Shown: positions 32,051-64,000 of the stretch, piece after piece
Layout: every line of letters begins with the position of its first letter
Numbering within the stretch: position 1 is the stretch's first letter
DNA from: Apostichopus japonicus
Taxonomy: Eukaryota; Echinodermata; Holothuroidea; Aspidochirotida; Stichopodidae
Length of the DNA stretch: 64,000 nt
Direction of reading: 5' to 3'
Assembly (NCBI RefSeq): GCF_037975245.1
Contig: NC_092566.1
Location: forward strand, 3,660,001 to 3,724,000
Program-made: the position numbers and the translations under genes
Notes under the pieces: model-generated
Databases searched by the model: none
Told to the model about the DNA's origin: nothing
Seen by the model: only the letters and a program-made list of their open reading frames with translations

Positions 32051-32101
32051 ATGGCGCGATCTTCGAACCTCGGAATATACTTGCTGGTGTCTTTGATAGT
32101 G
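32051..32101 (+). CDS. Mosaic gene exon 1: signal peptide
   Basis: The ATG is in strong context (A at -3, G at +4). Seventeen codons encode a short N-region and a hydrophobic core (GIYLLVSLIV), then the donor GTAAGT in phase 0. This is the only good signal-peptide exon upstream of the SRCR exons. Its link to the next exon is by phase only. Confidence 0.65.
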
Positions 32102-35100: not shown

Positions 35101-38100
35101 CTGCAAATTGGTCACATCAGAAAAACAAAATTTCAAAAATTATTTCTGTGTCACAAGTACTATACAGTATATATGCCTAGAATAGAGCAAGAAACTTCCT
35201 TTTACACTTCAGTTTCAACGAACGCAAAGAACAACATAAAATAAAAACAGTTAGATTTTTGAAGAAGTAGGTCTAAAGTCTTGGTTTCATTTGGACCATA
35301 ATTTTTGCAAACTTTCCAGCCTAGGTTACTTATGAAATATCTATCAAACAGGACATGTGGACTTTAAAGCTTAAGCTGCCATACATCACTACTATAAAAT
35401 AAAATTCTTTATGATTTGTTATGCAAGTCATGGTAAAATCTGTCTACAATTTATAACTTGCCCAAACAACTTATTTCAGTCAATTCAATTTCAAATCATT
35501 TATAACAAAGGAATTAGAGCTTTCATGAGTATGAGAAAACCTATTTATATGTAAATGGATTTAAAATAGATATAAACAACATGTTCAGGATGAATAGTCA
35601 ATTTTATGGTTTATCTTAATTATACACCATTTATTTCCAAGATGTTTTAGCTAAGAGAGAAAAAAGACAGGGACAAAGTTGGTATACTGTTTCCTTTGCG
35701 AGACTTCATAGGGAACTTCGGTCCAGGAGTGGCCGCGATGACGACAACGACGATGACGATGACGATGATGATGAAGATAGTGAGCGAGGAGAGCCTGAAC
35801 GGGTGATCTTCCGTAGAATAGCTGATACAAGAGCAGTTTCAGGTGATAATCTTTTGGTGTTCTAAAATTTTGCTTCTAAGTTTGCAGTTGTTTGCAAGAA
35901 AGATGAAATTAATCATAATCTTCAAATGGTTTTGCAAACAGTTTGGATCATACAAGAGAATTGATAACTACAATATGTTGAACACAAAACTTTCTGTATT
36001 GGAGTACTGTATTGCAGTGGATAACTCAACAGATAGTCCTGCATGGTTTACTGGTTATAACCATCTGCAGGCATCTCTCAGGTAGATCAAGAAAAAGTAG
36101 ATTATGCGTGGCTGGATAAGAGTAATTAACCTAAAGCAAATTTCAGTTTGAAAGTGGGGTGTGTCTTGTCACAATGCTGCAACCAGCTAAATACAATTAG
36201 TGACAATTAGCGTTTCAGTTCTCAGATACTCATACAGTATATATATATATCATTCATTTTCTGTGCTTTTTTTTTCCCCCAGCTACATACCAAATTCGGT
36301 AAGTGTGTTTTTAAAAATTCTTTTTATAAGTGTTATTATTCATTAAGCATACTAATACTGCATATTAGAGTACATACAGAACACAAATGTGACCATATTG
36401 TATCACAGCAATGCATGGAGAAATAAATGTAACTATATATCTTAAGCAAATCCTGGTTACTCTTTTTTTTTTACAAAGATGAAGAAAACAAAGCTGGATG
36501 TGAATTTGTTACACTTTTATTTCGAAAATTAGTAAATGAAAGAAGTAAATGAGCAAATGAAAACTGGTTGGGAAATAATAGACATTGAAATAGAGCAAGT
36601 GTTAAATCACTGGGTTTGTATTAACCCAGAGGTTAGTGATTTTAATCCAGTTATAGCCATTAATTTCTTTACTCTTTTCCATAGAATTCTAGTTGCGAAA
36701 TGTGCATTTTATTGACAAAATCTTCTTTCAAAATTCTTTAAATTAAAGGAAGGAACAGTTATGTGAAAGTGAAAACCATACATATAAGATTAATTTCATA
36801 TGTATTCCACCAAACATGTACTGAACTTGATGACATAATGATTTAATATAATTATGCAAAGGAAATAATAGATGTATACATTTTAATTTACGGCACTTCT
36901 TTTAACGAGAAAGAAGCAAAAGAAAAATTCACTCCACCTACCTGTTACTTTCATATAAAATTAATTGCAATGTTACTCACTATTTGATGGATGTTTGCAC
37001 ATTTTTTTTTTCTTTTTCAATAGGCTTGTTGGAGGAAATACAGATAATGAGGGAAGATTAGAAATAAGGAAGAATTCTGGACCATGGGGAATGGTTTGTG
37101 ATGACAGTTGGACGTTTGAAAATGCATTTGTTGCTTGCAAGATGCTCGGTTACAGGTTTGTACAATGTTCTACTTGTCAACGAACCAGAATGAAAACAAC
37201 ATAGATTTGATTGAAGAGATAGTGAAGTGATACTAAAACACCCTAACAATACAGGGCATCAGTTTTACTGGTTATCTCCTACTGCTTCAAATTCCATATA
37301 TATGATGACAAAATAGTTAATTAAATCTTTGAAATTTTTCCTCATCATTCCTTGTGCATGGATAATTATTGCTAACATTGTTTATCAATAATTAAGTTGA
37401 ATCTTGATCTTTTAATTAGTTGCTAATTAATTTTCATTCGGTGAGAAAGTACAGGATGATACACCACTTTGTATTCACTGTCAATATAGTCACATGTGAT
37501 AAGTGTTCCTAGACTTAGTGAATCAACACAAAATCGCTTGCAAGCTGGCAACATGTCGGAAGTTTCGTAGACTTGGCCAGAAAAGGGGAATCAAGGCTAA
37601 TACCTACTTAAAATACATTCTAAATAAAATAAAACTGTTAGCAAACTGCTTATCCACGAAAATTTATCCATGAAAATATATTCTATCAGAAGTATATATG
37701 CACATAGCAACACATTTAGGGGTAATAGGCCAATAGGGAGAGGACAGGGCCACATGGGATACAATTGGGCTGGGAGGATAGGAGGTTCAGAGGAAAGGAT
37801 ACTGGGGGTCTAATTGATGTGCAACAAACAGTTTGAATGGCAAATAACAAGTACAATAACTTTAATTTAATATTTGCCACGACAACAACCCCTTCTTCAA
37901 GTCTTAGTAATTCTGAAATTATGAAAACCTTTTCTGTTCTTTGTTGATTTCTTGCTTTAGGCAAGATGTGATGGCGTGTGTGTGTTTGTGTGTATGTGAC
38001 AATTGGTGGAGATCAAAGGTCATTTGCAGTCAACATGTAAGTCTAAGTCTGAAAATCTTGTAAACCTGATAACTCAAGAAGTACATCTTTATTGAACTTT

Positions 38101-47100: not shown

Positions 47101-50100
47101 TCCAAAACCAAGATTGAAGAACTATGGTTACAGAAGCTTCCAATACTCTGGGTCTTATCTCTGGAACAAGTTACCAGATCACAGTCGAACATGCTATACA
47201 CTTTCTACTTTCAAAAGTCTACTTAAGACCCATTTTTTCATTTGTTCTTTTGTAAATTAATTTACTTTCTTTGTAAAGCGCTTTGAGCAGTGACTTTTGT
47301 TTACTGATTTGGCGCTATATAAGTCTCATTTATTATTATTATTATTTGGCCATTTTGCATAGCATATTGTCATTCGAACATGGATAAATGATTCCTTGAC
47401 AAGCTGCTATCTGAGTGTCCAAACACAGTGTAACATATAAATTTCTCTATGTACTATCATCAAATGTGAAAGATCTGCATATATATTACACAGTAGTAAA
47501 ATATATATGACCATGTACCTTGTACTGTAGAAACTGCTACACAAGCTGTACTATACACAGTGCTGAGTCAATGTAAGCTACTGAGGCACCATGTACAGTA
47601 CATAGTATGGTACTGTTCAAATTAGTCAATGGGAATACCCTTTAGTACATGTATGTCATGTGACCCATCTGAATCACTTTGTTTACCCTGTGTATATGAT
47701 GCCATTACCATGACTACTGAGGCTTGAACATGAAGCAAGCAGGGGTTTCCAATCCATAGATGTCAGTTACTACTGCATAATAATTGTGACTTCAATTAAT
47801 GGTGGAGTCTAATTGTCATTGATAGCTCATGTCAAGTCATGGACCTGGAGTCACTTTGGTTATCTCCATGGGGAGACACCTGAAGGCAACTTTTCCCCGA
47901 GTCTATTTACATTTGATCTTTAGTTAGTGTGAAGTGTGGCTTGTTAAAACAATACCATCATTAATTGACTTTGATTACAAGGCAGAGCAAACCCGGTGCG
48001 TAGCCAGGAATTTGCCAAGGGAGGGGCGAAACTGTAGATTCAGCATTGCAAACTATCTAAGCGTAGCGCCACCATGGTTGGCCCGAAGCCTACAAGAAAA
48101 TTTTGGATGAAAATGCCTCCCAGATCGCTGGAAATGGCACTTCCCAGGCCTCGTAAGTTGCATCTTACTAGCAATATCATAAAAGCATTAAAAAAACATT
48201 AACAAAAATATGCTCAAGGGGGGGGGAGGGGCGGCTGCCCCCTTCGCCCCCCTTGGCTACGCGCCTGGAGCAGACATGAATGAAAAAATGTCTCCTTTCA
48301 ATAGTGTTCTCAATCCTTGCAATTTCTTGTTTTGGATGTTAATACAAATTCCATTACATATATGTGTATGTGTCAAAGGCATATATATTTACTTTGACTC
48401 TTACTAACCTGTCTCCTCACAACCTCAGCACTATGACTCTATAATTGCCTAGAGTGAATTTGGTAAACTTTTGAACACTTTACCCCCTCTTCGTTTGGAG
48501 GAGACACGTAAGCTCGTCACTCGTAAATATCCTTGTAACCCGGTAAGATTTGGAATATTTTGGAATATTGATCAATCCTCCATAAATATACACCCTCAGT
48601 TTTCTGCATGTCTTTTTTTATTTAACAGGGGGGTCATGTCCGTGCACCTACAAGCGAATCCCCGTTTTGGATCAGGGAGCTTAGATTTCATCATGGATGA
48701 TGTCTCATGTAACGGAAATGAGGAGAGCCTCGGAGAATGCCAACATCAGTGGGGCTCCCACAATTGTGACCGGGCGACAGAAACTGTCGGCGTGACTTGC
48801 CTGATAGACGTTGTTGACGAAGGTAATTATCACATCAAAACTAAAACACTGTGTGGGAGACATTGGCAAGGGAGGGGTACTTGGTTGCTCCCAATCCCTT
48901 CCCTTCTATCAAGTTTTGTATTGTTTATGCTATACTTAAGGGGAAAGGATGAAGAAACTTTATCCGTCCATCATTTCTTATAATCAGCAATGGTGTATAA
49001 CAATGTGAGACAAGTGTAATGCTAAAAGGAAACTTTGAGATACTGGGCACCCTCAAGACTTCATAGTTTTAACCCGCCCCCCCTGTTTCCCTCCCCTTCC
49101 TCCTCCTCCTTCTTTCTTTCGTCCTTCCCAGACCAAACACACTTCACCACAGTCTCGCACCTTCACAAAATAAGTGGCTACCCCGCTGCCTTTAGATATG
49201 AAAGGTATATTTTTGTGTTTTTTGTGTATATTTGCATTGATATCACATTTATGACAATTAAACACAGTTTATGTGTATGTTTTTCGTTTTGATATATTTC
49301 ATCAGACCACCTTTGAAGTTCAGTGTGTTCCACCAGTGTAACACTGACATTTAAAATACAACATTTATGGTTTTAGATACATCCTGGTTGAAATTTGGTT
49401 CTCATGACTCGACCAGTTAATATTGACAGGAGGGGAAATTATTTGCCCTTGGGACAACTTGCCAAAATCTTGGAAATGTTTTGGCAGGAAGTAAAGATTA
49501 ACAGGTTGAAATGTCTGTTTAAAGGAGTTTAAATGTCATGTTTCAGAACTGGAGTGAAAGAAGTCACAGTAGTAAATGAAATAATAACTTTGACACATCC
49601 TCACCCAGTAGCCTACAATGGCATGTTCGCGATCAGAACATCAGTCCTACTGAACCGGAAGGGGTAGTCAGTAAATGTATTGTATTAATCTGTAGGTGTT
49701 CAGAATGAATTGATCGTCGGGTGCATTTTTGGAATCACCCATTGAAAGGCTGTTATAGTTGATCTCTGATCGTAAATTTCTGAACATCTGTAGGATCCAC
49801 TACTCAACAAAAGTTGTTCCAACCGGTGGTCAAGATTCATTCATTACATTAGAATGTGAAGATGAAATTCATTATGATTGAATAATAGGAAATTTTCTTT
49901 CGAACGATGAAGACAAAAATTCGCAACTTATCGAAATTTGGGAAAAACTTTTCATAAAAAGGCAACCCAAGATAATAAGCTGCTTTAAGATCCCATGGGT
50001 ACATTTGAAGATACATTGATTTCCTGGTTCACACTGAACAGCTGTTATTCAATTGATGGGTTCCTAAGCCTTCCAGCCAAGCTAGAACTTATGTCTGCAT

Positions 50101-53100
50101 TACTCAATGCTAGTAAAAGCATATGCAGTATAATTGAAAAATGAGGACAAAAAAAAAAAAAAAAAAAAAAATAATAATAATAAAAAATAAAATAAAAAAT
50201 ATATATAAAGACCAAACTTTTCCCACTCAACAAGGATGCTATGATAAAATGGAATATATACCTTTTGTGAAAATGTTAAAAACTGGAATGTAAATATAAT
50301 GTGAAAACCACAGTAAGATTAAAAAAAAAAAAAAAAATATGAGAAAAGGAAACAGACGATGCCAGGAAAAAGTTGGATCCTGTCAAAGAATCGTAATCTC
50401 AAGAAGGGTGGACCATAGATGAATGTTTTACTTTGTTTGTGGATGTACCATAACAAGTGCAAGGATCCTGTTGGTCATGGTGTTAGGTCACAGTTCAGCA
50501 GAGGTTAAACATGTGAAATCTCAAGAAGGCAAGCCATTGATTGATTCCAAAGTTTGTCTGTAGATGTCCCATATTGAGCAGATGGAGCTGTTGCTTTTTG
50601 TTGGAGGTCAAAGGCCATGTTAAGTCATATGTGGTTTAACTGTGAAAATCTGTAAACATGATATCTTAAGAAGAAAAGCTTGGATGGGTTGTAAACTTTG
50701 TATGTAGATACCCCATAGTGAGTTGATTAAGCCTTTTGTTTTTGTGGGAGGTCAAAAGTCATGTAGTCAGGGATTTGCATAGTCCTTGTTGCCAGGGGGA
50801 TATGTAAATAAGGGGTGCACCACTTTATCACTGCACCACCTATCACTTCCTGTTCCTCCCAATGTTTCCATTCTACATACCCACATTTTCAAGGGAAATT
50901 TCCTAATTCAGTTGCTTTATAGTTCCACAAAGTAGTTTTTCAGACAACAGTGCATTTTAATGGTGAACATTTGAAAATGTTTAAAGTCTGAAATCCAAGA
51001 TGTAAATGATAGGATGACTTGCAGTCACCATTCTGCCCCCATATGCTTGATCCATAACCCGGTAGGGACTCAAACCAAAAAATGGGGGTAAATTTTGTCA
51101 TAACACATGGTTCCAAGTTCATAGTTACATTTTCTAAGAAAGGCCTTTAAATAGTATAAGTTGTTATTCAATGCTGTTTGGGGAACAAAATAAGAGAACA
51201 GAGGAAATGTAAAAATAATCTTTTTAGAACCTGCAGGAATTCTCCCTAGTTGTTTTCAATTATCTTTCTCTTCAGATTTACTGTTAAAGTTTTGTATTTG
51301 TTGGTGTAACCCCTGACCTTACATCCTGGGTTTGTGCAAGTTTATATTATCCCAGGTATTGTGTGTCTGAGAGTAATCCAGTCAAGTATTTTCATGTACT
51401 TTAAAACTGACCTTTCTATCTGTTTTGGCAAAGCATTTTTCTCCTTTTATCTTCATGCCCAACAGCATGAGTGGGAGGGAAGGGGGGGGGGGAATTTTTG
51501 AACGTTCTGTGAACTGTTTCAAAACTGCGTACAGGGTTACACAGCATGACATAAATTACATCTTGCTGTGCATTTTTGTAGTAAATTCTTTATATTGATG
51601 GATATACTTCCACTGGGAAAAAAAAAGAGGAAAAATATGATTCATTAGTTGATCATCTCCAACCACGTCTGTAGCTGTATGTATGAAGGGCTGTAGACAC
51701 AATGGAAATACTATGTGGTGTTGTGAATGTACCATGTCTTACCTGTCTCTTCACTACAACTGCACATCAGGTTTTGAGTTTTATCAAATTCAAATTTTTT
51801 CTCAAAATTAATTTGTATACTTCTTACAATTTAAAAAATATCATTGATTTAAAGAAATGGTCCCTCTTTCATATTAAACTGAAAGATTTAAACTTAAATA
51901 GAACGCTAAACAAACAGACAAACAGACACAAAAAGTAAACATGCAACGAAACATGGAACGATTGATTTATGAAATTCAAAGACTGTTTTTCTGAAAATTA
52001 ATTTTGATCCTCCTGACAATTGTGGATCCTCCTGACAACACAGCATTATCATTGATTCAAAAAAAAGTTCCCTCTTCAATTTAGACTGAAAGATTAGAAA
52101 ACAACACAAAACAAACAGGCAGACAAAAAGTAAACAATGAAACATGGAACGGTTGATTTATGAAAATTCAAAGACTGCTTTGCTCAAAATTAATTCTTAC
52201 TTTTGTTACAATTTAAAAATTATCATTGATTTAAAGAAATGTTCCTTCTTTCAGTCTACTGCATCATGGGTGTAAAAGATCTGATTGCTTCACATTTTGT
52301 TGGATTACACATATATATCCCATGCAAATGTAAATTTCAGATTCAGCACACAGCATTCTCAATACCTGGGGGACAAACTGTAACTGTGGTTTGATTGTCA
52401 GAGATTACCAAATTAAGCTGTTCTGGTCGTTGGGCAGATTACTATATAGTTTCATTTCATTTCATTTATTGAAACCAGTATAAATATAGCATATTTATAA
52501 AAAGGAGTACACATGTCAAACTAAAAACAAATAAATATGAAAACCATGATAGATAAGATGTTCATATGATTGCACATCAAGAAAGCGTTAAAACTATGTA
52601 CATTACTAGAACTAGGTGAAACAATTACAGAATATGAAAACCGTGATAGATAAGATGTTCAAAAGATTGCACATCAAGAAAGCGTTAAAACTATGTACAT
52701 TACTAGAACTAGGTGAAACAATTAAAGAATATGAAAACCGTGATAGATAAGATGTTCAAAAGATTGCACATCAAGAAAGCGTTAAAACTATGTACATTAC
52801 TAGAACTAGGTGAAACAATTAAAGAATATGAAAACCGTGATAGATAAGATGTTCAAAAGATTGCACATCAAGAAAGCGTTAAAACTATGTACATTACTAG
52901 AACTAGGTGAAACAATTAAAGAATATGAAAACCGTGATAGATAAGATATTCAAAAGATTGCACAACAAGAAAGCGTTAAAACTATGTACATTACTAGAAC
53001 TAGGTCAAACAATTAAAGAATATGAAAACCATGATAGATAAGATGTTCAAAAGATTGCACATCAAGAAAGCGTTAAAACTATGTACATTACTAGAACTAG

Positions 53101-56100
53101 ATGAAACAATTAAAGAATATGAAAACCGTGATATGTTCAAAAGATTGCACATCAAGAAAGCGTTAAAACTATGTACATTACTAGAACTAGATGAAACAAT
53201 TAAAGAATATGAAAACCGTGATAGATAAGATGTTCAAAAGATTGCACATCAAGAAAGCGTTAAAACTATGTACATTACTAGAACTAGATGAAACAATTAA
53301 AGAATATGAAAACCGTGATAGATAAGATGTTCAAAAGATTGCACATCAAGAAAGCGTTAAAACTATGTACATTACTAGAACTAGGTGAAACAATTAAAGA
53401 ATATGAAAACCGTGATAGATAAGATATTCAAAAGATTGCACAACAAGAAAGCGTTAAAACTATGTACATTACTAGAACTAGATGAAACAATTAGTAAAAT
53501 TAAATGAGAGGTTCCAAATTACCAAATTGAATGTATATTGCAGCACGGTAGATGAAAGAGTTCTTATAAAGTTGAATTCTATATTTTGGCAAGATATGAG
53601 GGTCCCTAAGATTCCTGGTAGCTTTCACCAACAGACAATTAAGTGGCCCATGTAGTGGGTGATCTTTGTCATCTCTAATTTTATTTGTCATCCTTACAAA
53701 TTCATTCTTTGCAGCTGTGTTTACTTGATCCTTCAGTGATAGCTGGCTTACATTCAATATACGTGAAGTATACTTAAGGAATCTCATCAGTCTATGCTTG
53801 TCAGAAGATGATATAAAGTGATACCATACGGGAACAGCATAAAGTAAATGTGGCAGAATAAAGGAGCTGAACACATTTTTCCTTGCACCTTCATTAAAGA
53901 ATGACACAATATAGGCAAGACTTGATACAAAATAATACACTTTACATGATTAAATTCATATTACACTCTAACTAAATACCTTAATTTTTTAAAATTACCT
54001 ATAGGTTAAAGGATAAATTGGTATCACACTCCATCACTTTTGAGATATTGATAAAATAAAACGAAAATCGTGCTAGGCCTATGATCTAGCAGAAGTTCTA
54101 TTTATGTTTACCAAATCTACACATCACTCTTACAATCTACATAATTTATTTGGACAACCAATTTTGACGTTCGTGAAAGACCTGATTGTCCGAGTGACAA
54201 CCAAAGACAAAAAACTTCCAAAATATATGTCGTGATACCCAAATGCATTCTTTCATTCTGTTCTGTTGTTGTCTTCCTCACCCAGATCACCCAGAATGTT
54301 TTACCCTCGATAGCGGGGCAGACTACCGAGGTACGGTGTCACAGACTATATCTGGCCTCACCTGCCAAGCGTGGAATGAGCAGACACCTCATAGGCACGG
54401 TTTCTTGCCGGATAGCTTCCCTGGATTCGGTCTCGGGGACCATAATTACTGCAGGAGTTTGGGCAGGGCGAGGGCGCCCTGGTGTTTTACAACCGATCCA
54501 GAGACCGAGTATGAATACTGTAGTGTTGGGCAGATACAGTCTAATTGTCGTAACCCTGGTGAGTTCAACACCCCCCCCCCCATTGTTGCGTTGAAAGCCA
54601 CTCGTGCTTAGTAAAAATAAAGATATTTGTCTACAACAAAGGGAGGCAAAATGCAGCCAAATTGTTTTTCTTTGGCTGGGTAGGTTTACGAAACCTTATT
54701 GATACAGCCTGTGGAGCTCCATAGCAAAGAAAAACGTGAAATAAGTACCCTTCGGGGAGTTTGTATATAGCTGTTACTTGTCGAATTTTAAGATTATTAT
54801 AGACTACACAATAGTGACAAAGTAAAGATTGTTTAGGCTGTCGAGGTTGAATGCATAATGAGAACTTTAAGGGCAGAAAGCTTCAACAAAGATATTTTGG
54901 AAAATTAAAAACCTGAGCATGGTTGCTTTTTGGGATTATAAAAATTAAAAAAAGAGAGAAATAAAAAGAAAAAAATGTTAATTTTTTTTTTTTTTTAAAT
55001 GAGAGGGTATTAGATGCAACATAAGAAAGGGGAAATCTGTATGCTTACGAGCACATATATGCAACATTTTGTAATTAATGTAATCATCATCAGGTAGTAA
55101 CGGTTGTCATTTGTCATTTTTCACAGTATCCCCAGAATGTTACATAACACCAAACGGTTCCGACTACAGAGGGTTTGCCTCCACCACGGTCACCGGGATG
55201 AATTGTGTCAACTGGTTAGACTCGACATTCGTGCATCCCTTCACACCGGAAGATTTTCCCAACCAGGGTCTGGGGGATCACAACTACTGCCGAAACGTCA
55301 ACAGTCAGAAGGCGCCCTGGTGCATATCCCCAAATCCTCACTCGGAGACGCACTGGGAATTTTGTGACGTGGCACCCCCCATGCCATCTTGCGACCGAGA
55401 GGTCCCGATGATAGTCGGTTAGCCTGTGATTTCATTTGATTCTTGAGAGTTCGAGAAATGCTAAGGAAATGAAACTGTGATCATTTAGGGTTTTTTTTTT
55501 TTGGATATGATATGATATGATATATATTATATATGATATAAATCTTGACGGAATAAATCTTCAGCCAAATATTTTGAAGCAGGATACAGGGTTTGCTTCT
55601 CAATCTCTAAATGTTGGGATGGCAATTTTCTAGTGTCATTTACAAAATTTTAGACTGAAAGGCTGTATTGGTATTTTTTTTCACATCACTGGCAAAGGTC
55701 TGATTTCAGCAGGGTTTTGAGAAACTGAGAAAAATTTAAATCTGTTTTTGAAGTTTTCAATTATGTAGTCTGAAAAATTATGAAGTATGAATAATTTACG
55801 TATTGAAAAACTTCTGAAGCTGGACCATATTTCACATACTTTTGCTAACTTTCTGTCATAGGAATCTCTTGTATGGTTTTGCGGTATAAAAACTTTTATG
55901 TTACATATAAAGCCATCAAACTATAGACCAAACTTGCAAATTTTTGGATTTGTCGTGAAAATAATATGCTGGCCGTTTAAACACTGCCTGCATTGCTGAC
56001 ATACTGAATGCAACCTGACTCAATTGAACTATCTGACCCAGGCCTGGATAGTCATGGCCGTTTAAACGCTTCCTGCAACGCTGACATAGGGAATGCAACC

Positions 56101-59100
56101 TGACTCGATTGAACTATCTGACCCAGTTCTGGATAGTCACGGCCGTTTAAACGCTGCCTGCAACGCTGACATACTGAATGCAACCTGACTCAATTAAACT
56201 CTGACCCAGGCCTGGATAGTCATGGCCGTTTAAATGCTGCCTGCAACGCTGACATAGGGAATGCAACCTGACTCGATTGAACTATCTGACCCAGGCCTGG
56301 ATAGTCATGGCCGTTTAAACGCTTCCTGCAATGCTGACATACTGAATGTAACCTGACTCAATTGAACTATCTGACCCAGTCCTGCATAGTCATGTACCAC
56401 TCATAATCATACAACCAAACCCCTCACACTGGACGACACATGAGTATACATTGAACGACTCTTACCTGCAATACCGCTTCCCCACCCCAACTGGCTACAT
56501 TTGTCGAATACCGGGCAGTTGTAGCTGTGAACCGATGCCACACTTTGAGCAGCTCCGTTGAAAGCCGATGCGCCTAAAAACTGGCTAAATTTTTGTCGTC
56601 AGTAAATGCACACTGCCCTGACTATCCATGATTGTCCATGTCACGATGATCCAGTCGGGTCCGGTCTCCTCCCGTTGTGCAGTGTGCGACCGGCGTAAGG
56701 CAATGGCTTGAAAACGATAACGAACTGTACCCTTGTGACTTTAAAGCATTTATGTCCCACATTTGATTTGATCCCACATCTGATTGGCTGTAATTGTACC
56801 GATTTTGAATGTACATGTTACAACATGGTGGCTTTCCATTTACTAGAAAGTTGAATTGTGTTAACTTTGTTTGCTATTTCAGGAACAGAAGTAGATGTTT
56901 TGGAATCATTCTGGGTTGTGGAAGGTGCAGCAATACAAGGTTATAACCGAAGGTAATTGGTGTTGCATATTTTGGCATGCCATGTAACTTTGAGTTGAGT
57001 TGCCTTATGATGTCACAATTGCAGGGAATCAAATTTAACTGCATCTAATTTTCAAACATGCTTTGAAATTTTCCACTCAAAAATGCTGGCATCCACTCCA
57101 TCATCAGTCAAATAATATTTTAGCTAGTAAAGTATGATCTGTTGTTCATTATAGCTAGTGTTATCTTATTGTAGTCATACTAATTTACCAAATTGATGTG
57201 TTCTCTAATGCCTTGTGCAATATGAAATAAAGTAAAAGAAAACTGAATGTTTAGTAGAGCTATTTAAGACCACGCACACAAAGTGTTCAGGTTGGTGAAT
57301 GCATTTCTACGAAATCCACCGTCCACCAGGGCGTGCCACAAGGATCTTGTGCTGGCCCTGTTCTCTTTACGGCTTATGCAAGTACTTTATATCATACAAT
57401 CTCCAGTCACCTTCCCGAGGTCATGGGGTATGCAGACGATCACGCCCTGTACCTAAAATTCAAACCTGGTAATTCCGACTCTGAACTTTGTGCTCTAAAT
57501 GCTATGGAGAGTTGTTTATTGGACGTTAAGGCTTGGATGAATATGTGTCGCTTAAAAATGAACGATACCAAAACTGAATTTCTTATCTTTGGTTCACGAA
57601 CTCAACTTGCAAAACTTGAAATTGATTGTATTAACGTGGACTCATCTATTATTAATTGTGTAAATGATGTGAAGTATCTTGGCGTTTATTTGGACAACAC
57701 ATTATCAATGAAAAAACATATAAATGAAAAATGTAAAATCGCTAGTTTTAACTTGTATAATATTAGAAAATTACGTAAGCATCTTTCAACTGATTCTACT
57801 CGCACTTTAGTTCAGGCACTTGTCACATCACACTTTGATTATTGTAACTCTTTGTTTTATGGTCTTCCCAGTTCTTCCCTTAATAAGTTACAGCGTGTAC
57901 AAAATATGGCTGCCCGTATCATCCTAAATTTGAACAAATATGACAGTATATCTTCTGCTTTTAAACTTCTCCACTGGCTTCCGATAAAGGATCGTATCGA
58001 TTTTAAAATTTTATCACTCACTTATAAGGCGCTTCACAGATCTGCACCATCTTATCTGAAGGACATTCTTAAACCACGATCAGTGAGCTACTCCATACGA
58101 TCTCATGACAGTTTGATTTTAACTACCCCCCGCACTCGCTGCAAGTCCCTTGGTGACCGTTCTTTTTGTGTCTGTGCCCCCAAATTGTGGAATGCACTCC
58201 CATTTTCTATTCGCAATTCAAGTACTGTAAGTTCATTTAAATCCAGTCTTAAGACTTTCATTTTCACACATGTATATAATTAATCTAGTTTTACTTATTG
58301 TCTCATTCTTTTTGTATCTATCTCTTACTATTGTTTTATCCTATTTTCTGTTTTTGTGGCATGGTATTGGTATATACTGTCTTCATTTTCTCCATCGTTA
58401 TTGGATTTGTTTTGTCTTTTAGGGTTATCTGTTTTTAAGATTTTTACCTCTTTCTTATGATTAACATGGTTTCTTAATTTTCGTTAAGTTTTATACCTTT
58501 ACTCTTTTAAGTTTGTACAGCGCCATAGCTTATGCTTTTACATATGTATGTGCGCTTTAGAAATGTTTAAATAATAATAATAATAGATCATATATCTTCA
58601 TTCGATTGGATCTGCCGATGTATTGTAGGAAGTGTGACTTGGGCAGTGTGAACTGAAGAAAAAATTGTGTAAATTAAATATAACATTCACCTTTCTTCCT
58701 CTCTCTCCCTTCCTTGCCTCACCCTGGTCACTCTCTCTCCATCACCTATCACTTTCATCCCTCCTTTCTGCCCATTCCTCCTCCTCCTCCTCCTCCTCCT
58801 CCTCCTCCTCCTCCTCCTCCTCCTCCTCCTCCTCCTCCTCCTCCTCCTCCTCCTCCTCCTCCTCCTCCTCCTCCTCCTCCTCCTCCTCCTCTTCCTCCCC
58901 TCTTCCTTCCTCCTCCTGCAGAATCGTCATCAACGTGTCTCCCAGTAGCTGTGCGAGGTACTGCCTGATAGAAGATGACTTCACTTGCCGATCCTTTGAC
59001 TATTCAACACGTCTGAACAGATGCTGGCTCAGCGACCAGAGTTCTCACCAAATCCCGCTCACCATCGGCGATGAAGTGGAGATCTTCACCTACCACGAGA

Positions 59101-62100
59101 GGATAAACATAGGTCAGTCTCTTTCTCCTTCTGGCTCTCGATCGATATTTATCCTGGTAACATGTAAAACTAAAGTAGTTTTGTACATGTCAATCACACT
59201 CCATTTAGTTTTCATTTTGGCAAAGTGTTTACAAGTCACATTGTTTTTCACTATCCTGATCGAGCCGTGCAGGTTAGCATAACACTTAAAAAAAAAAAAA
59301 TTAAATGATACCATACCGGGTATGAAGTAGCCCTTGACCGCGTCTCTATCTTTTATCCCTTCAGGTGCAACCGGTCAGTTCAGCATGAAAGCTAATCAAG
59401 CGTTACCGGGGAGTGGAACCCAAGCCATCTCCCAGCTCAGCCTTCACTCCTGTGCATCTGCCTGCCTGGTGGCATCGTTCGGCTGTGCTTCCTTCGATTA
59501 TGCTCGCAGAACCAGAGACTGTTGGCTGAACAGCGTGGAAGCTAGCGCCCAAATCCTTGGAGCCTTTGAAGGCGACCCTTACGATCACTTTGATAGGATT
59601 GGGCCCGGTAAATATTGACAGTTACCATTTAATATTTCATGGAAATTTGTATGGAAGTTACTGTACATCTGTTGTAACCATTCGATCAGAGCAAGTCCGG
59701 TACATTTTCGTAAAAAATGGGCCCCGTGAAGAACAATTCTCCTGATGATTCCAGGATTGAAATGTGCTTAAGTATGTTACAGCTCCTTCCTTCCTTGATT
59801 TTGATGCAAAACTGGCTAGCTGGGTAAAGTTGCAACTTTTATGATTTTTAGTTTCCTGGAAATTGACAGAAATTTGTTTCTGTGTAGAATCATTGGACCC
59901 ACATAGGCAAGCACCTTTCCTTTGCTTTACCAGAATAGGCCAGCGAGGTAAAGCCACTATTTGTATCATTGGTTAATTCCATAATTGGGACAACAAAGAG
60001 ATGCAGAATTAATATATCTCACAAAAGAGATTTGTCTTTTGAACACTTTGTCTTTTGTGCACTTTTGAACACTTTGTCTGTCACACTTTGTCTTTGTCAC
60101 ACTTTGTCTTTTGAACACTTTGTCTTTTGTCTTTTGAACACTGTCTTTTGTGCACTTTTGAAATATTCAAAGTGATTCTGCAAGTGATATCAAATGGTTG
60201 TCCATATCACTCACATGATGATCTTTGTCATTGTTGTTGTTGTTTATCATGTATACAGCTGAAGCAGACTGCTATTCTGGGAATGGACGAGAATACCGCG
60301 GTTACGTCAGTACGACAGAGGACGGCATGATGTGCGCCAACTGGATGGTGGCTAAAGAGCACGCCGTAGGAGTTACAGAGACCCAGTACCCGAACAGAGG
60401 TCAGTGCAGCATAACACATAAAACAAGTGTTTCTGAACCACCACTAGTACCCTTTAAATAACAACTGTAAAAAAATTGGCACCTCTGTTACCGGCTGTTG
60501 ACGAATTTTTTTGGGTAACTATTGCTCAGCACCCCCTGTGATCCAACCTCACCTCACAAAAGGATCATTCTTAATTTTGTGAAGCAATATATTTATGATT
60601 TTCACTTCTTCGTTACAGGTATTGGAGACCATAACTACTGCCGAAATCCTGACGATGACATCAAACCCTGGTGTTACTATGGTAACTCCGAAGACGTAGT
60701 GGCGTCATGGAGTTACTGCGACATACCGTTATGCTCAGATGAATCTGTCACGACTGAACCAACTTCTCAGGCAGCTCCTACTTCCACACCAATCACTTCA
60801 AGTAAGTTGATCTTGAGTAAATCTAACTGCCAAAATATTTCAGATAAATGGGATTCAATTGTTTTGGCTATAATACTTGTTAATCACCAATATGTAACCA
60901 TCTTCAACAGGTGGGGGGGGCAGGGGGGGCGCATAAGCTTATGAACCATAGTTCAGCCATAGTCATCCTTATATCATTCATGTCCTTTCATTTGCCAGTT
61001 ATTGTCACATTAGGGGTGAATTAAGTTACGTTTTAAGACGTCTCAGTGTGTTGAACATGCGATACATGAAGATTAATGGAATAACACAACAGTCAGGCCT
61101 ATAATATTAAGCCCTCTTGATTTGAAATAAAATACATGGACATTTAACAGTTATTTAGTATCCTTGTTCTTGCTGGTTTGTAAAAGTGGATCCCAAAATA
61201 TGTTTGTTTTTGGAAGGATTGAAGGTGGTGGGGTTACAGTGGATTTATAATTAATGCTTCATCTTTTGGAATCTTCCCATTATTTTTTTATTTTTTTTTA
61301 ATATATTTTATTCCAGCCTTACTTTCAGAAGGAAAAGAAGTATCGCAAAGTACCACTTTAAACAAGTTTGGCTTTGCGGGTGAAGCATCTCTCGCAGTCG
61401 ATGGGAACCTCGAACCACGGTACAGGCAGAGAAGCTGCTCGTCAACAGGTAAGCATAAATGAAGATGAATAATCCAGTTTCACTCTTAAAATCAGTGAAG
61501 CAGCTTCTTTCGTCAGGTTTGATTCAACCCAGAAAACCAAAGATCTGTGCAACGACCAGTTCTGAATTACAATCAGGAATCTGATCATCATCTCATCTGG
61601 AGTTATACTTTTAAGTCTTCAGGTTTCATCTCAATCTGTCTTCAACGTCACACCTTAAAGGGTGTGAAGACTCGTGCAAAAAGAAACGTCTAATGCCGGT
61701 AATTTGACCTAGTTTCGAATGAGGTGTAACATAAGTGTTAAACACCACCATCGATCCCAGAAAATTCACACACAGCTTGCTACCGTCGGTAATTAGACAC
61801 TAGTGTACAGTCAGTACATACCACTGCGGTCAATACCCACAGCACAGTATGCAAACGATACAGCGATGGACATCTCAGGTCCAGCTAAAGATAACAAGAT
61901 ATCACGTTTCATTACTGTCTGCATTTTGTAGCGACACAAACAAAACGTCACTTGCAAGCAACAGAAAGTTAACTTTTTCAAATGGCCGCACACGGTTTGG
62001 GGCGAGTCTTCAATGCCTTTAAACTATTGAGTTTTCATTCATCTTTATATGTATTTTTTTTTCTTCCTCTCAGAACGTGAATTAGATGGTTGGTGGGCGG

Positions 62101-64000
62101 TAGACCTCGGTGGCATTCACAACGTTGAATATGTCGAAGTTGTCAACGAGTTTGATAACCGTGAGTTAGTCCCAATAGAATTTATTCTTTAATTATTTTG
62201 TTTTTTTTTTCTTTTCTTTTCTTTCTTCAGGGAGTCTTCCACATTGTCAAATTGTAAAAACCTTGTAAACATGATATTGCAAGAAGGGAACCTTGAACAG
62301 GTCTCATATTTGGTTTGTACCATATCAAATTTGAGGAGCCCATTATTGGGGAGCCCCCCCAAAAATCGGGGGGAAAAAAAGGGATTTTCCATCATAAAAC
62401 TTATGTGTCATAACACACAGTAAAATAGTCTCTGCACATTTTATTTAGAATTTTTTTTTTCTTCTTCAAATGTGTGTAAATTCTACAGCATTACGTATTC
62501 GTAGAACGGAGGTTTCGGTTGGAATGGTACTTACCGACCTGTCCACCTTTGAGGTATGTGGAGTTATCAAGAAAAATGAAGCTCAGAAATCGATGTCAGA
62601 TCCAACACGGACCATCAGGGTGGACTGCCCCCAGGACCTCAATGGCAGATATGTCCGTCTGCAAATGAAGAGGAGGGATTTTTTGACTCTCTGTGAAATC
62701 AGAGTCTGGGGCACAGAAGGTGAGTTCTACCGTCCTACCGTCTTAAACTGACTTATAGCGCCATGAGATTTGTTGTTTGAAAAAAAAAAACACATTCACA
62801 TCAGTCACCGTAGAGAAAACAAGTCCTATGATGTGCTCTGATGAACTTTACAAGGCATTTGTTTGTTTGTTTAGTCATAATTCACAATCAAAATGAGTCA
62901 TGAATGATATTTAATAAGTTATGAAACCGAGAGTTGCACCTCTCTACCTTTACAAAACAAGTCCTGTAATGAATATGCATTGATTCTCATCAGTATCGTC
63001 CCCACACTCACTCTCTAATATTTGCAAAAAGGCGTCAAGAATTAGTTGTCCTTCGTAGTTCTCCTTCGAGTCTTTGGTCGAAGGCTTTGTTGATTATTTC
63101 TCTCCGCATTTTAATGCATGTCTTATCGAGGGAAAATGCTCTGAACATGGCAGTCAAATGCTTGTTGTAACGTCGACAGTGAGTGACCGACTGACCGTTA
63201 TTTAACTTCTAGCATATGTTGGCGCAAAATTATTGCTGACCTTCAAAGCCTCAAAGCGTTGTTACTCCTGTGATTTTACAACTCTCTGGTATGTGTATTT
63301 CCTTCCACACTTAAAAGCATCTTCTTGGTGACAAACAATATGAAACTTACATTTGAGAGAAAAGTTGAAATGGTCACATCAATATGTTGTTTCCTAACTT
63401 GAGAAACGGTTGCTTGAATCTAATCTTTGGCTGGCTGTAAGCCGTCAACTACTCCAGGAAGTTGGATCACAGTCAGGGGGTCTGTGATGTCATCTGGGCA
63501 AAAGCTTTTCAAATGTTTTACTCCGGTTATTTTAATCTCGTCATTGAATCATCCTTGAAACCTGATACTTTTGAAATCTTTTTTTACAGCTGTCAAAGTT
63601 CTTGTTAATACTTAGAATTTCATCAAAATGTTTTTTTTTTTGGTGTAAAAATATGACTTTTCTCTTGTGGATCAAAATTATAAAGAAAAACAAAGACATT
63701 TTCTATGGAAGCCACATGATGACGTCATCCATTTTGCTGTTGCGAGATGCATTTACAAAATATTGCAAAAATATTAAAACATTCATAACGATAAAAAAAT
63801 GCTATGGGTATTTGGTTTTGGCCTAAAGATTCAGAAAATTTTCAGCAATATTGCTAAGAAAATAACTTAAGTCACCAGAAGATCCTTGTAATGAAAACCT
63901 GCTAATTGATCATGTATTTACATGTTTGTGTGTTTTCTTCATTTCTCTGAACCAATACAGCTTCTGTACCTTGTGGTCCAAGACAGTTTATGTGCCACAG
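32051..64000 (+). CDS. Mosaic SRCR-kringle-PAN-lectin secreted or surface protein (whole gene, 3' end outside window)
   Basis: Sixteen exons join in frame: 32051-32101, 35656-35842, 36283-36298, 37024-37155, 48629-48822, 54286-54558, 55127-55417, 56883-56952, 58922-59112, 59365-59607, 60259-60399, 60619-60801, 61317-61448, 62074-62160, 62489-62719 and 63961 to the edge. About 820 residues result: signal peptide (1-17), acidic region (18-79), SRCR (about 84-190), kringle 1 (194-284), kringle 2 (285-381), PAN 1 (382-468), PAN 2 (469-549), kringle 3 with Ser/Thr linker (550-657), fucolectin-type domain (658-807), likely LDL-receptor class A repeat (808 on). These are extracellular, disulphide-rich modules of recognition and proteolysis cascades. 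Neurotrypsin and plasminogen/HGF are partial relatives, so a C-terminal serine protease is possible but unseen. I know of no described protein with this order. Confidence 0.85.
32102..35655. other. Mosaic gene intron 1
   Basis: No certain exon. Long G or C runs lie at about 32329-32342, 32615-32630, 32776-32789 and 33066-33080. The segment 32748-33095 has related ends (CAGTGGCGTGC on the left; CAATGGCGTAC on the right when complemented) and may be a miniature transposon, but its flanks do not form a clear target duplication. A good donor at 33862 lacks a convincing exon. Confidence 0.45.
35656..35842 (+). CDS. Mosaic gene exon 2: acidic segment
   Basis: An open 187-nt segment from phase 0 to phase 1. 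It opens with REKRQ, a furin-type RxKR site, which may allow processing just after the signal peptide. It then has an Arg-rich stretch and an aspartate run (DDDNDDDDDDDDED) encoded by GAC/GAT repeats. No domain. The acceptor chosen (TTTTAGCTAAG) keeps the frame with exon 1; the AG five bases earlier would need a phase-1 donor. Confidence 0.6.
36283..36298 (+). CDS. Mosaic gene exon 3: 16-nt microexon
   Basis: A strong pyrimidine tract (TTTTTTTTTCCCCCAG) ends at 36282 and a consensus donor GTAAGT starts at 36299. The 16 nt enter in phase 1 and leave in phase 2, encoding ATYQI plus part of an Arg codon. They supply exactly the missing start of the SRCR domain (ATYQIRLVGG when joined), which is strong support for a real exon. 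Confidence 0.75.
37024..37155 (+). CDS. Mosaic gene exon 4: SRCR domain, first half
   Basis: It encodes LVGGNTDNEGRLEI, then WGMVCDDSW and ACKMLGYR, the hallmark first half of a scavenger receptor cysteine-rich domain (RLVGG...G.VEV...WG.VCDD.W....A.V.CR.LGY). Donor GTTTGT, phase 2. Two cysteines of the domain lie here. Confidence 0.93.
38008..38230. repeat. Dispersed repeat with GGTCAAAGGTCA motifs, two units
   Basis: Two diverged units of about 150 bp, each with (G/A)GTCAAAGGTCA near its start followed by 'GTAAACCTGATAACTC'-like sequence. The unit at 38159 carries a perfect direct repeat of AGGTCA-type half-sites spaced by one base (DR1). Related units are at 50391-50765 and 62255-62345. 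Confidence 0.6.
38741..40596 (-). mobile_element. DNA transposon with TTAA target site and THAP relic
   Basis: The outermost inverted repeats are identical: TTAAAGACCAACTATGGAG at 38741-38759 and its complement at 40578-40596. TTAA at each edge suggests a TTAA target duplication, as in piggyBac. Longer degenerate subterminal repeats include TGTGACGTCA(C/T)TGTTTGTATAC near 38960-38982 and 40360-40390. Inside, the minus strand starts a THAP zinc-finger frame (40173-40283). No transposase core is visible, so it is a degraded or deletion derivative. Confidence 0.75.
40173..40283 (-). pseudogene. Truncated THAP zinc-finger frame inside the transposon
   Basis: It reads MPQFCVVGGCSYTSSN, then SISFFRFPSK, matching the start of THAP domains (MPxxCxxxxCxN...SFFxFP). 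The frame stops after about 36 residues. The next part in another frame is basic but lacks the expected Trp and Cys/His pair in order, so the domain is incomplete or interrupted. THAP domains are DNA-binding modules of P-element-type transposases and their domesticated relatives. Confidence 0.65.
44288..44780. repeat. Two-unit tandem repeat, about 241 bp
   Basis: Units start with CATTTTGCGTT near 44289 and 44531, and a third begins near 44772 (ACTTTGCGTTGGG) but is cut short. Shared blocks include AAACAGCAAA(C/T)TAAGAT, CCCTGCCAA and CACTAGTTTGAATTC. The third start runs into the hairpin GGGAGTTG-TTATG-CAACTCCC (44781-44801), related to the one at 294-321. Confidence 0.7.
45090..45760. repeat. 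Degenerate short tandem repeat
   Basis: At least seven diverged units of about 45-60 bp, built on TTAAGTTAGGTACAGTGGTC followed by TTG(T)TC(A)ATTGAGGATATGTAG. Units are interrupted and unevenly spaced. A related fragment lies just upstream at about 44212-44280. Confidence 0.65.
46735..47345 (+). mobile_element. Non-LTR retrotransposon fragment (CR1/L2-like)
   Basis: One frame encodes the C-terminal part of a reverse-transcriptase polyprotein: LVHAFVTSKLDF, then KLQKIQNTAARIV, LHWLPISYRI and WNKLPDHSR, ending with a stop at 47258-47260. The order and motifs are those of CR1/L2/Rex-type elements. The 3' end has AAGCGCTTTGAGC, GCGCTATATAAGT and an ATT-repeat tail. It is 5'-truncated, lies in an intron and is a different family from the element at 57255. 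Confidence 0.85.
47993..48267 (+). mobile_element. 'GCGTAGCC' miniature hAT-like element
   Basis: The ends are CCGGTGCGTAGCC and, complemented, CAGGCGCGTAGCC. The flanks GAGCAAAC (47985-47992) and GAGCAGAC (48268-48275) are an 8-bp duplication with one change. At 275 bp it has no coding capacity. A fragment of this type is embedded in the element at 10085-10759. Confidence 0.7.
48629..48822 (+). CDS. Mosaic gene exon 5: SRCR domain, second half
   Basis: It enters in phase 2 (completing an Arg codon) and leaves in phase 1. It encodes SLDFIMDDVSCNGNEESLGE, then a Cys, HNCDRATE and VGVTC, the conserved second half of an SRCR domain (I.LDDV.C.G.E..L..C.....G.HNC....E.AGV.C). With exon 4 there are six cysteines in all, and the domain is split over two exons, both features of group A SRCR domains. 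Confidence 0.93.
50391..50765. repeat. Dispersed repeat with AGGTCA motifs, three units
   Basis: Three diverged units of about 125-140 bp, each with a CTCAAGAAG or CTTAAGAAG start, a GTAGATG(T/A)(A/C)CC(A/C)(C/T)A block and GGAGGTCAAA(A/G)G(T/C)CATGT-like sequence near the end. Same family as 38008-38230. Confidence 0.55.
51784..52250. repeat. Tandem repeat of about 190 bp, 2.4 units
   Basis: Units begin near 51784, 51968 and 52162 with A(A)ATTCAAA, then TCAAAATTAATT. They share ATCATTGATT(T/C)A, CTGAAAGATT and AACATGGAACG(A/G)TTGATTT. The middle unit contains a small internal duplication of GATCCTCCTGACAA. Confidence 0.75.
52449..53940 (-). mobile_element. Non-LTR retrotransposon 3' part, minus strand
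   Basis: The minus-strand frame 53940-53500 encodes a reverse-transcriptase thumb and C-terminal region (FILPHLLYAVPVWYHF, then DKHRLMRFLKYTSRIL, ending LEPLI and stop). The 3' side runs through a 97-bp minisatellite to a tail of GAAAT units at 52469-52450. The coding part is uninterrupted for 146 codons. 5'-truncated; a third retrotransposon family in the window. Confidence 0.8.
52537..53495. repeat. 97-bp minisatellite, ten units, in the retrotransposon 3' region
   Basis: Units start with ATGAAAACC at 52537, 52634, 52731, 52828, 52925, 53022, 53119, 53209, 53306 and 53403. The seventh unit is 90 bp through a 7-bp loss near 53133. Units are nearly identical, so the array is recent. The stop codon of the minus-strand reverse transcriptase lies just outside it. 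Confidence 0.93.
54286..54558 (+). CDS. Mosaic gene exon 6: kringle 1
   Basis: A single phase 1-1 exon of 273 nt after TTCCTCACCCAG. It encodes a complete kringle: DYRGTVSQTISGLTCQAW, then LGDHNYCRS, APWCFTTDP and EYEYCSV, with the six canonical cysteines. The acidic pair that makes the lysine-binding site in plasminogen kringles is absent: the loop after NYC is RSLGRARAPWC. Confidence 0.93.
55127..55417 (+). CDS. Mosaic gene exon 7: kringle 2
   Basis: A phase 1-1 exon of 291 nt. It encodes SDYRGFASTTVTGMNCVNW, then LGDHNYCRN, APWCISPNP and WEFCDV, a complete kringle with a short tail. The lysine-site acidic pair is replaced (RNVNSQKAPWC). The donor is a weak GTTAGC, chosen because it keeps phase 1; no other GT in the right phase is better. 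Confidence 0.9.
55971..56393. repeat. 85-bp minisatellite with dimeric pattern
   Basis: Five units start with GGCCGTTTAAA at 55971, 56056, 56141, 56224 and 56309. Units 1, 3 and 5 read CATACTGAATG and ACTCAATT; units 2 and 4 read CATAGGGAATG and ACTCGATT, so the array grew as a dimer of about 170 bp. It lies in the intron between kringle 2 and PAN 1. Confidence 0.9.
56883..56952 (+). CDS. Mosaic gene exon 8: PAN domain 1, start
   Basis: A 70-nt exon after TTGCTATTTCAG, ending at GTAATT; it enters in phase 1 and leaves in phase 2. It encodes VLESFWVVEGAAIQGYNR, the first strands of a PAN/apple domain (F....G..I.GYN). Phase 2 is matched only by the exon at 58922. Confidence 0.82.
57255..58585 (+). 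mobile_element. 5'-truncated non-LTR retrotransposon with intact RT C-terminal frame
   Basis: It starts in frame at SYLRPRTQSVQVG and stays open to the stop at 58281-58283. Reverse-transcriptase motifs appear in order: GVPQGSCAGPVLF, GYADD (the catalytic Asp pair), KTEFLIFGS, then the CR1/L2-type thumb (KLLHWLPIKDRI, PKLWNALPFSIRN). A 3' UTR and an AATAATAAT tail follow. No stop or frameshift interrupts about 340 codons, so insertion was recent. The fragment at 13399-13752 is a second copy. It lies within the PAN 1 intron. Confidence 0.93.
58776..58890. repeat. (TCC)n microsatellite next to a splice acceptor
   Basis: About 38 uninterrupted TCC units, followed by more C/T-rich sequence up to the AG at 58920-58921. 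The pyrimidine tract before the PAN exon is therefore over 140 nt. Apparent poly-Ser, poly-Pro and poly-Glu proteins here are artefacts. Confidence 0.95.
58922..59112 (+). CDS. Mosaic gene exon 9: PAN domain 1, remainder
   Basis: It enters in phase 2 and leaves in phase 1. It encodes SSCARYCLIEDDFTCRSFDY, then NRCWLSD and a Tyr-His-Glu-Arg ending, the conserved centre of a PAN/apple domain (SC...CL....C.SFDY....C.LS). PAN domains bind proteins or carbohydrates in plasminogen, HGF and coagulation factor XI. Confidence 0.9.
59365..59607 (+). CDS. Mosaic gene exon 10: PAN domain 2
   Basis: A complete PAN domain on one phase 1-1 exon of 243 nt. It encodes LHSCASACLVASFGCASFDY, then RDCWLNS and DHFDRIGP. 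The Cys pattern is that of PAN 1. Unlike PAN 1 it has no internal intron, so the two are not a simple recent duplication. Confidence 0.9.
60030..60165. repeat. Short CTTTGTCTTTTGAACA repeat
   Basis: Irregular tandem copies of TTTGTCTTTTGAACAC and shortened forms in the intron before kringle 3. No coding role. Confidence 0.8.
60259..60399 (+). CDS. Mosaic gene exon 11: kringle 3, first half
   Basis: A phase 1-1 exon of 141 nt. It encodes ADCYSGNGREYRGYVSTT, then MMCANW and QYPNR, the first half of a kringle. Kringles 1 and 2 are each on one exon, whereas this one is split before the GIGDHNYC motif, as in many vertebrate kringle genes. Confidence 0.92.
60619..60801 (+). CDS. Mosaic gene exon 12: kringle 3, second half, and Ser/Thr linker
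   Basis: It encodes IGDHNYCRNPDDDIKPWCYY, then WSYCDIPLC, the most canonical kringle in the gene. The Asp pair of the lysine-binding site (RNPDxD in plasminogen) and the aromatic partners are kept. After the last cysteine come about 25 residues rich in Thr, Ser and Pro (TTEPTSQAAPTSTPITS), a likely O-glycosylated linker. Donor GTAAGT, phase 1. Confidence 0.93.
61317..61448 (+). CDS. Mosaic gene exon 13: fucolectin-type domain, part 1
   Basis: A phase 1-1 exon of 132 nt. It encodes EGKEVSQSTTLNKFGFAGEA, then SLAVDGNLEPRY and SCSST, the start of a fucolectin/F5-8C-like fold (G..A.QS......A..AVDGN......SC). Three exons make up the domain. Confidence 0.87.
62074..62160 (+). CDS. Mosaic gene exon 14: fucolectin-type domain, part 2
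   Basis: An 87-nt exon, phase 1-1, encoding GWWAVDLGGIHNVEYVEVVN, then EFDN. WW.VDLG......V.V.N is diagnostic of the fucolectin family. The family's fucose-binding motif HX24RXDX4(R/K) appears altered: the His and the first Arg align with Glu, while the Asp and last Arg are kept. Confidence 0.88.
62255..62345. repeat. Dispersed repeat fragment joined to a retrotransposon-tail fragment
   Basis: CTTTCTTCAGGGAGTCTTCC at about 62221-62240 matches the 3' region of the retrotransposon at 18664-19123. It runs directly into GTAAACATGATATTGCAAGAAG-like sequence of the family at 38008 and 50391. The two pieces look fused. Confidence 0.5.
62489..62719 (+). CDS. Mosaic gene exon 15: fucolectin-type domain, part 3
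   Basis: A phase 1-1 exon of 231 nt. It encodes LRIRRTEVSVG, then CPQDLNGRYVRLQM and LTLCEIRVWG, the typical end of a fucolectin/F5-8C domain (C....GRYV.L.......LTLCEV.V.G). Confidence 0.9.
62720..63960. other. Mosaic gene intron 15
   Basis: No exon or clear repeat recognised. A-rich and T-rich runs at 62780-62789 and 63631-63640 only. Confidence 0.5.
63961..64000 (+). CDS. Mosaic gene exon 16 (cut by the window edge): likely LDL-receptor class A start
   Basis: After CCAATACAG the phase-1 frame reads ASVPCGPRQFMCHS before the sequence ends. C-x-x-x-x-F-x-C fits the opening of an LDL-receptor class A repeat (C....F.C..G.CI). Only fourteen residues are visible, so this is provisional. Confidence 0.55.

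Follow-up and report, generated by a model that had tools for sequence, protein, structure and literature searches.

A multi-module echinoderm gene with SRCR, kringle, PAN and F-type-lectin-fold domains belongs to a known, little-studied protease family

Background

A 64,000-nucleotide stretch of DNA (hereafter the window) contains, in its second half, exon-sized reading frames that encode SRCR, kringle, PAN and fucolectin-type modules, which raises the question whether these belong to a single gene, whether their combination is new and what the encoded protein would do. The original prediction held that they form one mosaic gene with a module order unlike that of any described protein, and that a protease at the C-terminus, if there were one, would make the product a recognition-triggered protease. 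We found that the window covers the front half of a gene whose product is a large, secreted protein of many binding modules, and that this is a real echinoderm gene of a known, little-studied protease family. What is new is the gene itself, i.e. a gene in a divergent echinoderm lineage, with a lectin-like domain that lacks two of the three fucose contacts and with a third kringle that has kept its Asp-X-Asp motif.

Results and discussion

Exon structure and module order

The gene model derived from the window sequence joins 15 exons in one frame on the forward strand between positions 35642 and 64000, over 14 joins that are bordered by AG and GT. All 15 exons are open, the phases agree at 14/14 joins, and the spliced product comprises 807 residues that read, in order, acidic region, one SRCR, two kringles, two PAN domains, a third kringle, linker, F-type-lectin-fold domain and the beginning of an LDLa module. 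The first of these exons (35642-35842, phase 1 to 1) encodes a furin-like site, AKREKR, followed by the acidic stretch DDDNDDDDDDDDEDSE. A micro-exon of 16 bases (36283-36298, phase 1 to 2), which encodes (A)TYQI(R), restores the missing phase into the start of the SRCR domain, and the latter is itself spread over two exons (37024-37155, phase 2 to 2, and 48629-48822, phase 2 to 1). Kringle 1 (54286-54558), kringle 2 (55127-55417, with the weak donor GTTAGC) and PAN 2 (59365-59607) each occupy a single exon of phase 1 to 1. Internal introns are present in PAN 1 (56883-56952, phase 1 to 2, and 58922-59112, phase 2 to 1), in kringle 3 (60259-60399 and 60619-60801, both phase 1 to 1, where the second exon keeps NPDDDIKPWC and also encodes the Ser/Thr linker) and in the F-type domain (61317-61448, 62074-62160 and 62489-62719, all phase 1 to 1, with Ser at the His52-equivalent position in the first and Glu at the Arg79-equivalent position in the second). 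The last exon, a probable LDLa exon on account of its likeness to the LDLa starts of relatives, is present by its start only (63961-64000) and is cut by the end of the window. From the end of the SRCR domain on, the introns at the module boundaries are of phase 1 in 7/7 cases, precisely as had been predicted, and this supports the proposed origin by exon shuffling.

The modules were identified with Pfam on the spliced 807-residue product, which yielded the three kringles (2e-57), the SRCR domain (6.5e-25), the two PAN domains (3.3e-15) and a F5/8C / NedA-like domain (2.5e-10). Pfam was also run on ten exon-sized reading frames before splicing, and there the SRCR halves (2.9e-12 and 2.4e-9), kringles 1 and 2 (5.9e-22 and 4.1e-17), the halves of kringle 3 (4.2e-7 for the first, which is under the Pfam cut-off, and 3.4e-10) and the PAN domains (6e-7 and 1.8e-6) were recovered in the order originally given, so that the assignment of one SRCR, three kringles and two PAN domains holds with and without splicing. 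Two of the F-type exons gave no Pfam match when tested singly. For the last complete domain after splicing, the nearest sequences of known structure are F-type lectins (FBP32, 3cqo, 3.4e-22; 1k12, 1.3e-10), and the designation 'fucolectin-type' is therefore correct as a description of the fold. The last 40 bases of the window, ASVPCGPRQFMCH, resemble the LDLa starts of relatives (e.g. ASCGPDEFQC in Diadema) and stand at the same place as in those relatives, that is after the F-type domain, which bears out a probable LDLa module of which only the first residues are inside the window.

The prediction had counted sixteen exons in frame, and it is the additional one that does not fit: the proposed signal-peptide exon (MARSSNLGIYLLVSLIV, 32051-32101, forward strand) ends in phase 0 and the acidic exon at 35642-35842 starts in phase 1, so that the two can not be joined directly. 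Splice-aware scans and an alignment of the propeptides of relatives revealed no bridging exon between them. The best match in the window to those propeptides has a score of 33, a value that was reached in 16/20 runs with shuffled queries; the segment concerned is rich in lysine and arginine and has a consensus donor at its end (33862), and no good acceptor was seen. Several relatives carry a basic segment between the signal peptide and the furin-like site, and in several of them acidic residues come after basic pairs, as in the acidic exon of the window. Given that basic segment, a small 5' exon was probably overlooked, or else the exon at 32051-32101 was misassigned.

Other elements in the window

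Several further features were observed, all reading frames among them lying on the forward strand. Ahead of the gene there is an open frame of 406 amino acids with leucine-rich repeats (11732-12952; LRR_8, 1.4e-35) and a weak match to a transmembrane segment near its C-terminus, an open frame like a death-effector domain (19753-20130; 2.5e-7) and one like a death domain (23129-23383; 4e-4), the latter two under the Pfam cut-off. The intron of PAN 1 contains a reverse-transcriptase fragment (57258-58280; RVT_1, 2.7e-8), and the SRCR intron an open frame of 224 amino acids (46586-47257) that looks like the end of a reverse-transcriptase element and has no Pfam match. A (TCC)n microsatellite of ~47 units (58776-58917) ends four bases before the second exon of PAN 1 at 58922, and thereby supplies much of the polypyrimidine tract of that exon. 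Tandem arrays are found at 14441-14701 ((TA)130), 26072-26784 (a 90-base unit, eight copies), 52534-53493 (a 97-base unit, ten copies) and 55970-56394 (an 85-base unit, five copies).

Relatives and their architecture

A first homology search returned 153 matches, and the best 120, which were listed, include many SRCR proteins and plasminogens next to one hemichordate and one crinoid protein with SRCR, kringle, PAN, F5/8C, LDLa and trypsin domains. A second search took this crinoid protein, from kringle to LDLa, as its seed and recovered relatives from crinoids, sea stars, one brittle star, urchins and two hemichordates. Every echinoderm or hemichordate match of this second search with an E-value below 1e-100 was mapped, i.e. 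11 relatives; left out were P0146, P0148 and P0162 (weaker ambulacrarian matches with other module sets and no trypsin listed) and the DMBT1-like matches of the first search.

The echinoderm core, SRCR, PAN-PAN-kringle-F-type-LDLa-PAN-LDLa-SRCR-SRCR-trypsin, is present in 9/9 mapped echinoderm proteins, of which that of Lytechinus starts inside its first SRCR. What varies is the number of kringles between SRCR and PAN: two in 3/9 (all sea stars, and as in the window), one in 2/9 and none in 4/9. In both hemichordate relatives (2/2) the first SRCR is missing and one further PAN-kringle pair is present. The SRCR-(K)n-PAN-PAN-K-linker-F-type-LDLa order of the LOC578177/LOC110982961 family is thus found in the window, where the LDLa is represented by its first residues only. 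The full order visible in the window recurs exactly in the three sea stars (3/3) and in close variants in eight other species, and the idea that no described protein has it had to be abandoned. It has been overtaken in print as well: a 2017 study of the sea-star skeletal proteome describes peptides similar to Strongylocentrotus LOC578177, the name of the mapped urchin relative P0131, as a novel neurotrypsin-like protease, places a LOC578177-like protease in all echinoderm skeletal proteomes examined and proposes a role for it that is connected to proteoglycans (PMC5460417). Among the literature matches listed (subscription papers being outside the coverage), the F-type-lectin variant is described in PMC5460417 and nowhere else. 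The relatives go by the database names plasminogen-like, apolipoprotein(a)-like, atrial natriuretic peptide-converting enzyme-like or uncharacterized.

A trypsin domain forms the end of 11/11 relatives, complete with the activation site R-(I/V)-(I/V)-G-G and the His, Asp and Ser motifs AAHC, NNDI and GDSGGP. Because all of them continue to trypsin, the protease branch of the original conditional prediction is probably right for the window gene, whose own trypsin domain would lie beyond the window's end, and because they end in a trypsin-type protease the gene should be seen as a member of an existing family and not as a new invention. Judged from these relatives, the unseen half very probably reads LDLa-PAN-LDLa-SRCR-LDLa-SRCR-trypsin. 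A homology search with the trypsin domain only gave 867 matches, the best 120 of which, as listed, are dominated by multi-protease proteins such as TMPRSS9.

Position of the modules and phylogeny

When the window segments were compared to the sea-star proteins, 7/8 matched best at the corresponding position, the exception being kringle 1, which matched the second sea-star kringle. Domain trees grouped kringle 3 of the window with the position-matched kringles of echinoderms and hemichordates (SH-aLRT 93) and PAN 2 with PAN 2 of four other echinoderms (SH-aLRT 80); kringles 1 and 2 fell together with four out of six additional kringles of echinoderms (SH-aLRT 92). As kringles 1 and 2 of the window are both closer to the second than to the first sea-star kringle, the shared kringle pair may have arisen twice. 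In the case of the SRCR domain, the best match in crinoids, urchins and hemichordates is a later SRCR, and a tree of 54 rows and 100 columns did not group it with the first SRCRs of the relatives; its nearest rows are SRCRs of the next position, which counts against a simple position match.

This displacement, the introns of about 11.5 and 5.5 kb that separate the SRCR exons and kringle 1, and the derivation of the model from genomic sequence speak for the idea that exons of separate neighbouring genes, one of them a DMBT1-like SRCR gene, one with kringles and PAN and one for a lectin, had been chained by eye. Yet such a chain should hardly have matched in phase at 14/14 joins among 15 exons, nor have reproduced the modules and the order that occur within one protein in three sea stars (with the core in 9/9 echinoderms), with 7/8 segments at the position expected from the sea-star proteins, and we consider this explanation very improbable.

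With five modules joined, a 100/100 branch separates echinoderms from hemichordates, and the one gene so defined lies on its echinoderm side. It is assigned to no class there, since it groups neither with the crinoids, sea stars or urchins sampled nor with the single brittle star; a sea cucumber would be a guess by elimination. Its branch has a length of 1.59, against a median of 0.22 for the end branches, and on account of this long branch the gene may be a rapidly evolving paralogue in which tail or role has changed. In the trypsin tree, of which the root is arbitrary and the branches are long, plasminogen and HGF are split from the ambulacrarian trypsins by a 100/98 branch; the deep forks among neurotrypsin, mollusc and ambulacrarian proteases are not separated, and hence we make no claim of descent from neurotrypsin.

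Sugar-binding site and kringle motifs

F-type lectins contact fucose through a basic triad, His52, Arg79 and Arg86 (PMC5712786). The alignment shows the window domain, similar as it is to these lectins in fold, to have Ser, Glu and Arg at these positions, with the equivalent of Asp81 kept. His-Arg-Arg is found in 2/2 hemichordates and 2/2 crinoids, Leu-Arg-Arg in 3/3 sea stars and in the single brittle star, Arg-Lys-Arg in Lytechinus and Strongylocentrotus, and Arg-Ser-Arg in Diadema. With Ser-Glu-Arg in place of the basic triad, the window domain is unlikely to bind fucose in the canonical way; of the glycan recognition that had been attributed to the protein the lectin fold stands, and the sugar contact is weakened for this copy by the replacement of two of the three residues.

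The Asp-X-Asp motif of kringles marks lysine binding. It precedes PWC in the third kringle of the window as well as in the position-matched kringle of 11/11 relatives, and is absent from kringles 1 and 2 of the window.

These replacements and the missing motifs would agree with a lineage-specific paralogue that has a shortened or catalytically dead tail, i.e. with a secreted decoy or matrix glue that is no protease, and so would the long branch, the closeness of both upstream kringles to the second rather than the first sea-star kringle, and the existence of echinoderm SRCR-kringle proteins such as P0013, which has related modules and no trypsin listed. Since the probable LDLa start is nevertheless placed as in the relatives, 15/15 exons are open and the protease motifs are kept in 11/11 mapped relatives, we think it unlikely that the gene has left the proteases.

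Proposed function

Taken together, the observations are explained best, and in our opinion with good probability, by a matrix-tethered trypsin-type protease with a visible targeting half, activation by cleavage and a role in proteoglycan remodelling. The product would be a very large secreted trypsin-type protease that is trimmed by furin at its acidic N-terminus. Its SRCR, kringle, PAN and F-type-fold modules would constitute the targeting half and anchor the zymogen to the extracellular matrix, mineralised matrix included, where the acidic stretch may favour calcium or mineral surfaces and kringle 3 may bind exposed lysines in the manner of plasminogen kringles; an acidic stretch behind a furin-like site would indeed suit a matrix- or mineral-associated protein. 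A cut at the Arg of R-(I/V)-(I/V)-G-G would activate the protease, which would then cleave after Arg or Lys and remodel proteoglycans like neurotrypsin. The latter has affinity for heparin, which raised the activity of a construct comprising the last two neurotrypsin domains about twofold (PMC9616769). Against this explanation it can be held that the trypsin exons of the gene are beyond the window and that the skeletal location comes from other species, that the long branch (a fast paralogue), the SRCR misplaced relative to the first SRCRs and kringles 1 and 2 without Asp-X-Asp do not follow from it, and that there are other echinoderm and hemichordate proteins (P0013, P0146 and P0162) in which SRCR, kringle or F-type modules are combined and no trypsin is listed.

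Defence offers another role for the same modules, which could bind microbial surfaces and leave it to the trypsin to trigger clotting or a complement-like cascade. PMC1761132 lists honey bee SP23 as 4LC-4CBD-SR-Clect-KR-LDLA-PA-2LDLA-SP and mentions that infection raises Drosophila Tequila and that mosquito SP22D binds chitin; moreover, the mollusc-type relatives P0045, P0037 and P0077 contain a C-type lectin domain. However, the F-type domain of the window retains one of the three basic sugar-contact residues, the published protein evidence for echinoderms (PMC5460417) is skeletal, and PMC1761132 reports the Tequila null mutant to be without phenotype. An immune pattern-recognition protease therefore appears rather doubtful to us, though less so than a dead paralogue, and we prefer the matrix-tethered protease. 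Bringing the misnamed relatives together as one family, in which the protease is conserved and the lectin site decays, yields a candidate for the remodelling of matrix and skeleton, and the interest of the locus lies in this joining and in a lectin that is swapped and decays, rather than in an unprecedented protein.

Comparison with known systems

The closest counterparts are the sea-star proteins of Acanthaster (LOC110982961, P0122), Asterias (LOC117303722, P0123) and Patiria (LOC119731787, P0124; 'Serine protease 12' in one source), which share the acidic N-terminus with the window and have an identical SRCR-K-K-PAN-PAN-K-linker-F-type-LDLa order. They are full length with trypsin, and are at most 44% identical to the window over the 498 columns of five modules; they differ in the F-type triad (Leu-Arg-Arg versus Ser-Glu-Arg) and in the first kringle, where Asp-X-Asp is present in sea stars and absent in the window. 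Strongylocentrotus LOC578177 (P0131) has the acidic N-terminus, the SRCR and the PAN-PAN-K-F-type-LDLa core in common with the window, but zero kringles between SRCR and PAN. The hemichordate 'plasminogen-like' proteins of Ptychodera (P0005) and Glandiceps (P0127) share the PAN-PAN-K-F-type modules and have the tail LDLa-PAN-LDLa-SRCR-LDLa-SRCR-trypsin, with a PAN_4 match within that of P0005; they differ by the absence of the N-terminal SRCR, by a PAN-K pair after the F-type domain and by retention of the full His-Arg-Asp-Arg motif.

Plasminogen consists of a PAN domain followed by a kringle array and trypsin, without SRCR. Plasminogen and HGF have PAN, kringle and trypsin in common with the family, whereas SRCR, LDLa and F-type domains are absent from their Pfam lists, and the gene as a plasminogen is ruled out by its leading SRCR, its two PAN domains and its F-type domain. 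Vertebrate neurotrypsin (PRSS12) shares kringle, SRCR and trypsin, but PAN, LDLa and F-type are absent in the two neurotrypsins mapped. The relatives do have kringle, LDLa and SRCR before trypsin in the order of the neurotrypsin/Tequila type; the window covers the N-terminal part of its own protein only.

At a larger distance, mollusc mosaics (Bulinus P0077, Pinctada P0139, Argonauta P0089) and aphid-like insect proteins have SRCR, kringle, LDLa, PAN, LDLa, SRCR repeats and trypsin in a shared order. The mollusc proteins have a C-type lectin between SRCR and kringle, and insect Tequila, SP22D and honey bee SP23 have chitin-binding modules; neither group has the F-type domain or the PAN-PAN insert. 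SP23 is given in PMC1761132 as chitin-binding, SRCR, C-type lectin, kringle, LDLA, pan-apple, LDLA and protease, and PMC6337849 lists amphioxus proteins with SRCR, kringle, LDLRA, PAN and trypsin, a listing of content and not of order. The third PAN of the ambulacrarian proteins (the fourth in hemichordates) groups with the single PAN of molluscs and insects (87, on long branches), and together with the shared module order this speaks for a single backbone that bears different sugar-binding modules, even if the trypsin tree does not separate the deep forks. The family illustrates how modules are exchanged on a protease chassis that is itself conserved. One might go further and suggest, tentatively and as less likely than not, an ancient bilaterian matrix or defence protease with a SRCR-kringle-LDLa-PAN-SRCR-trypsin chassis, of which the sugar-binding part was refitted per lineage and which, in the lineage of the window, has lost the fucose site and has a fast-evolving targeting half. 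Both would perhaps reflect a protease that was re-aimed, for instance in a class with a reduced skeleton. One and the same chassis would then carry the F-type lectin in Ambulacraria and, in insects and molluscs, modules of the chitin-binding or C-type kind.
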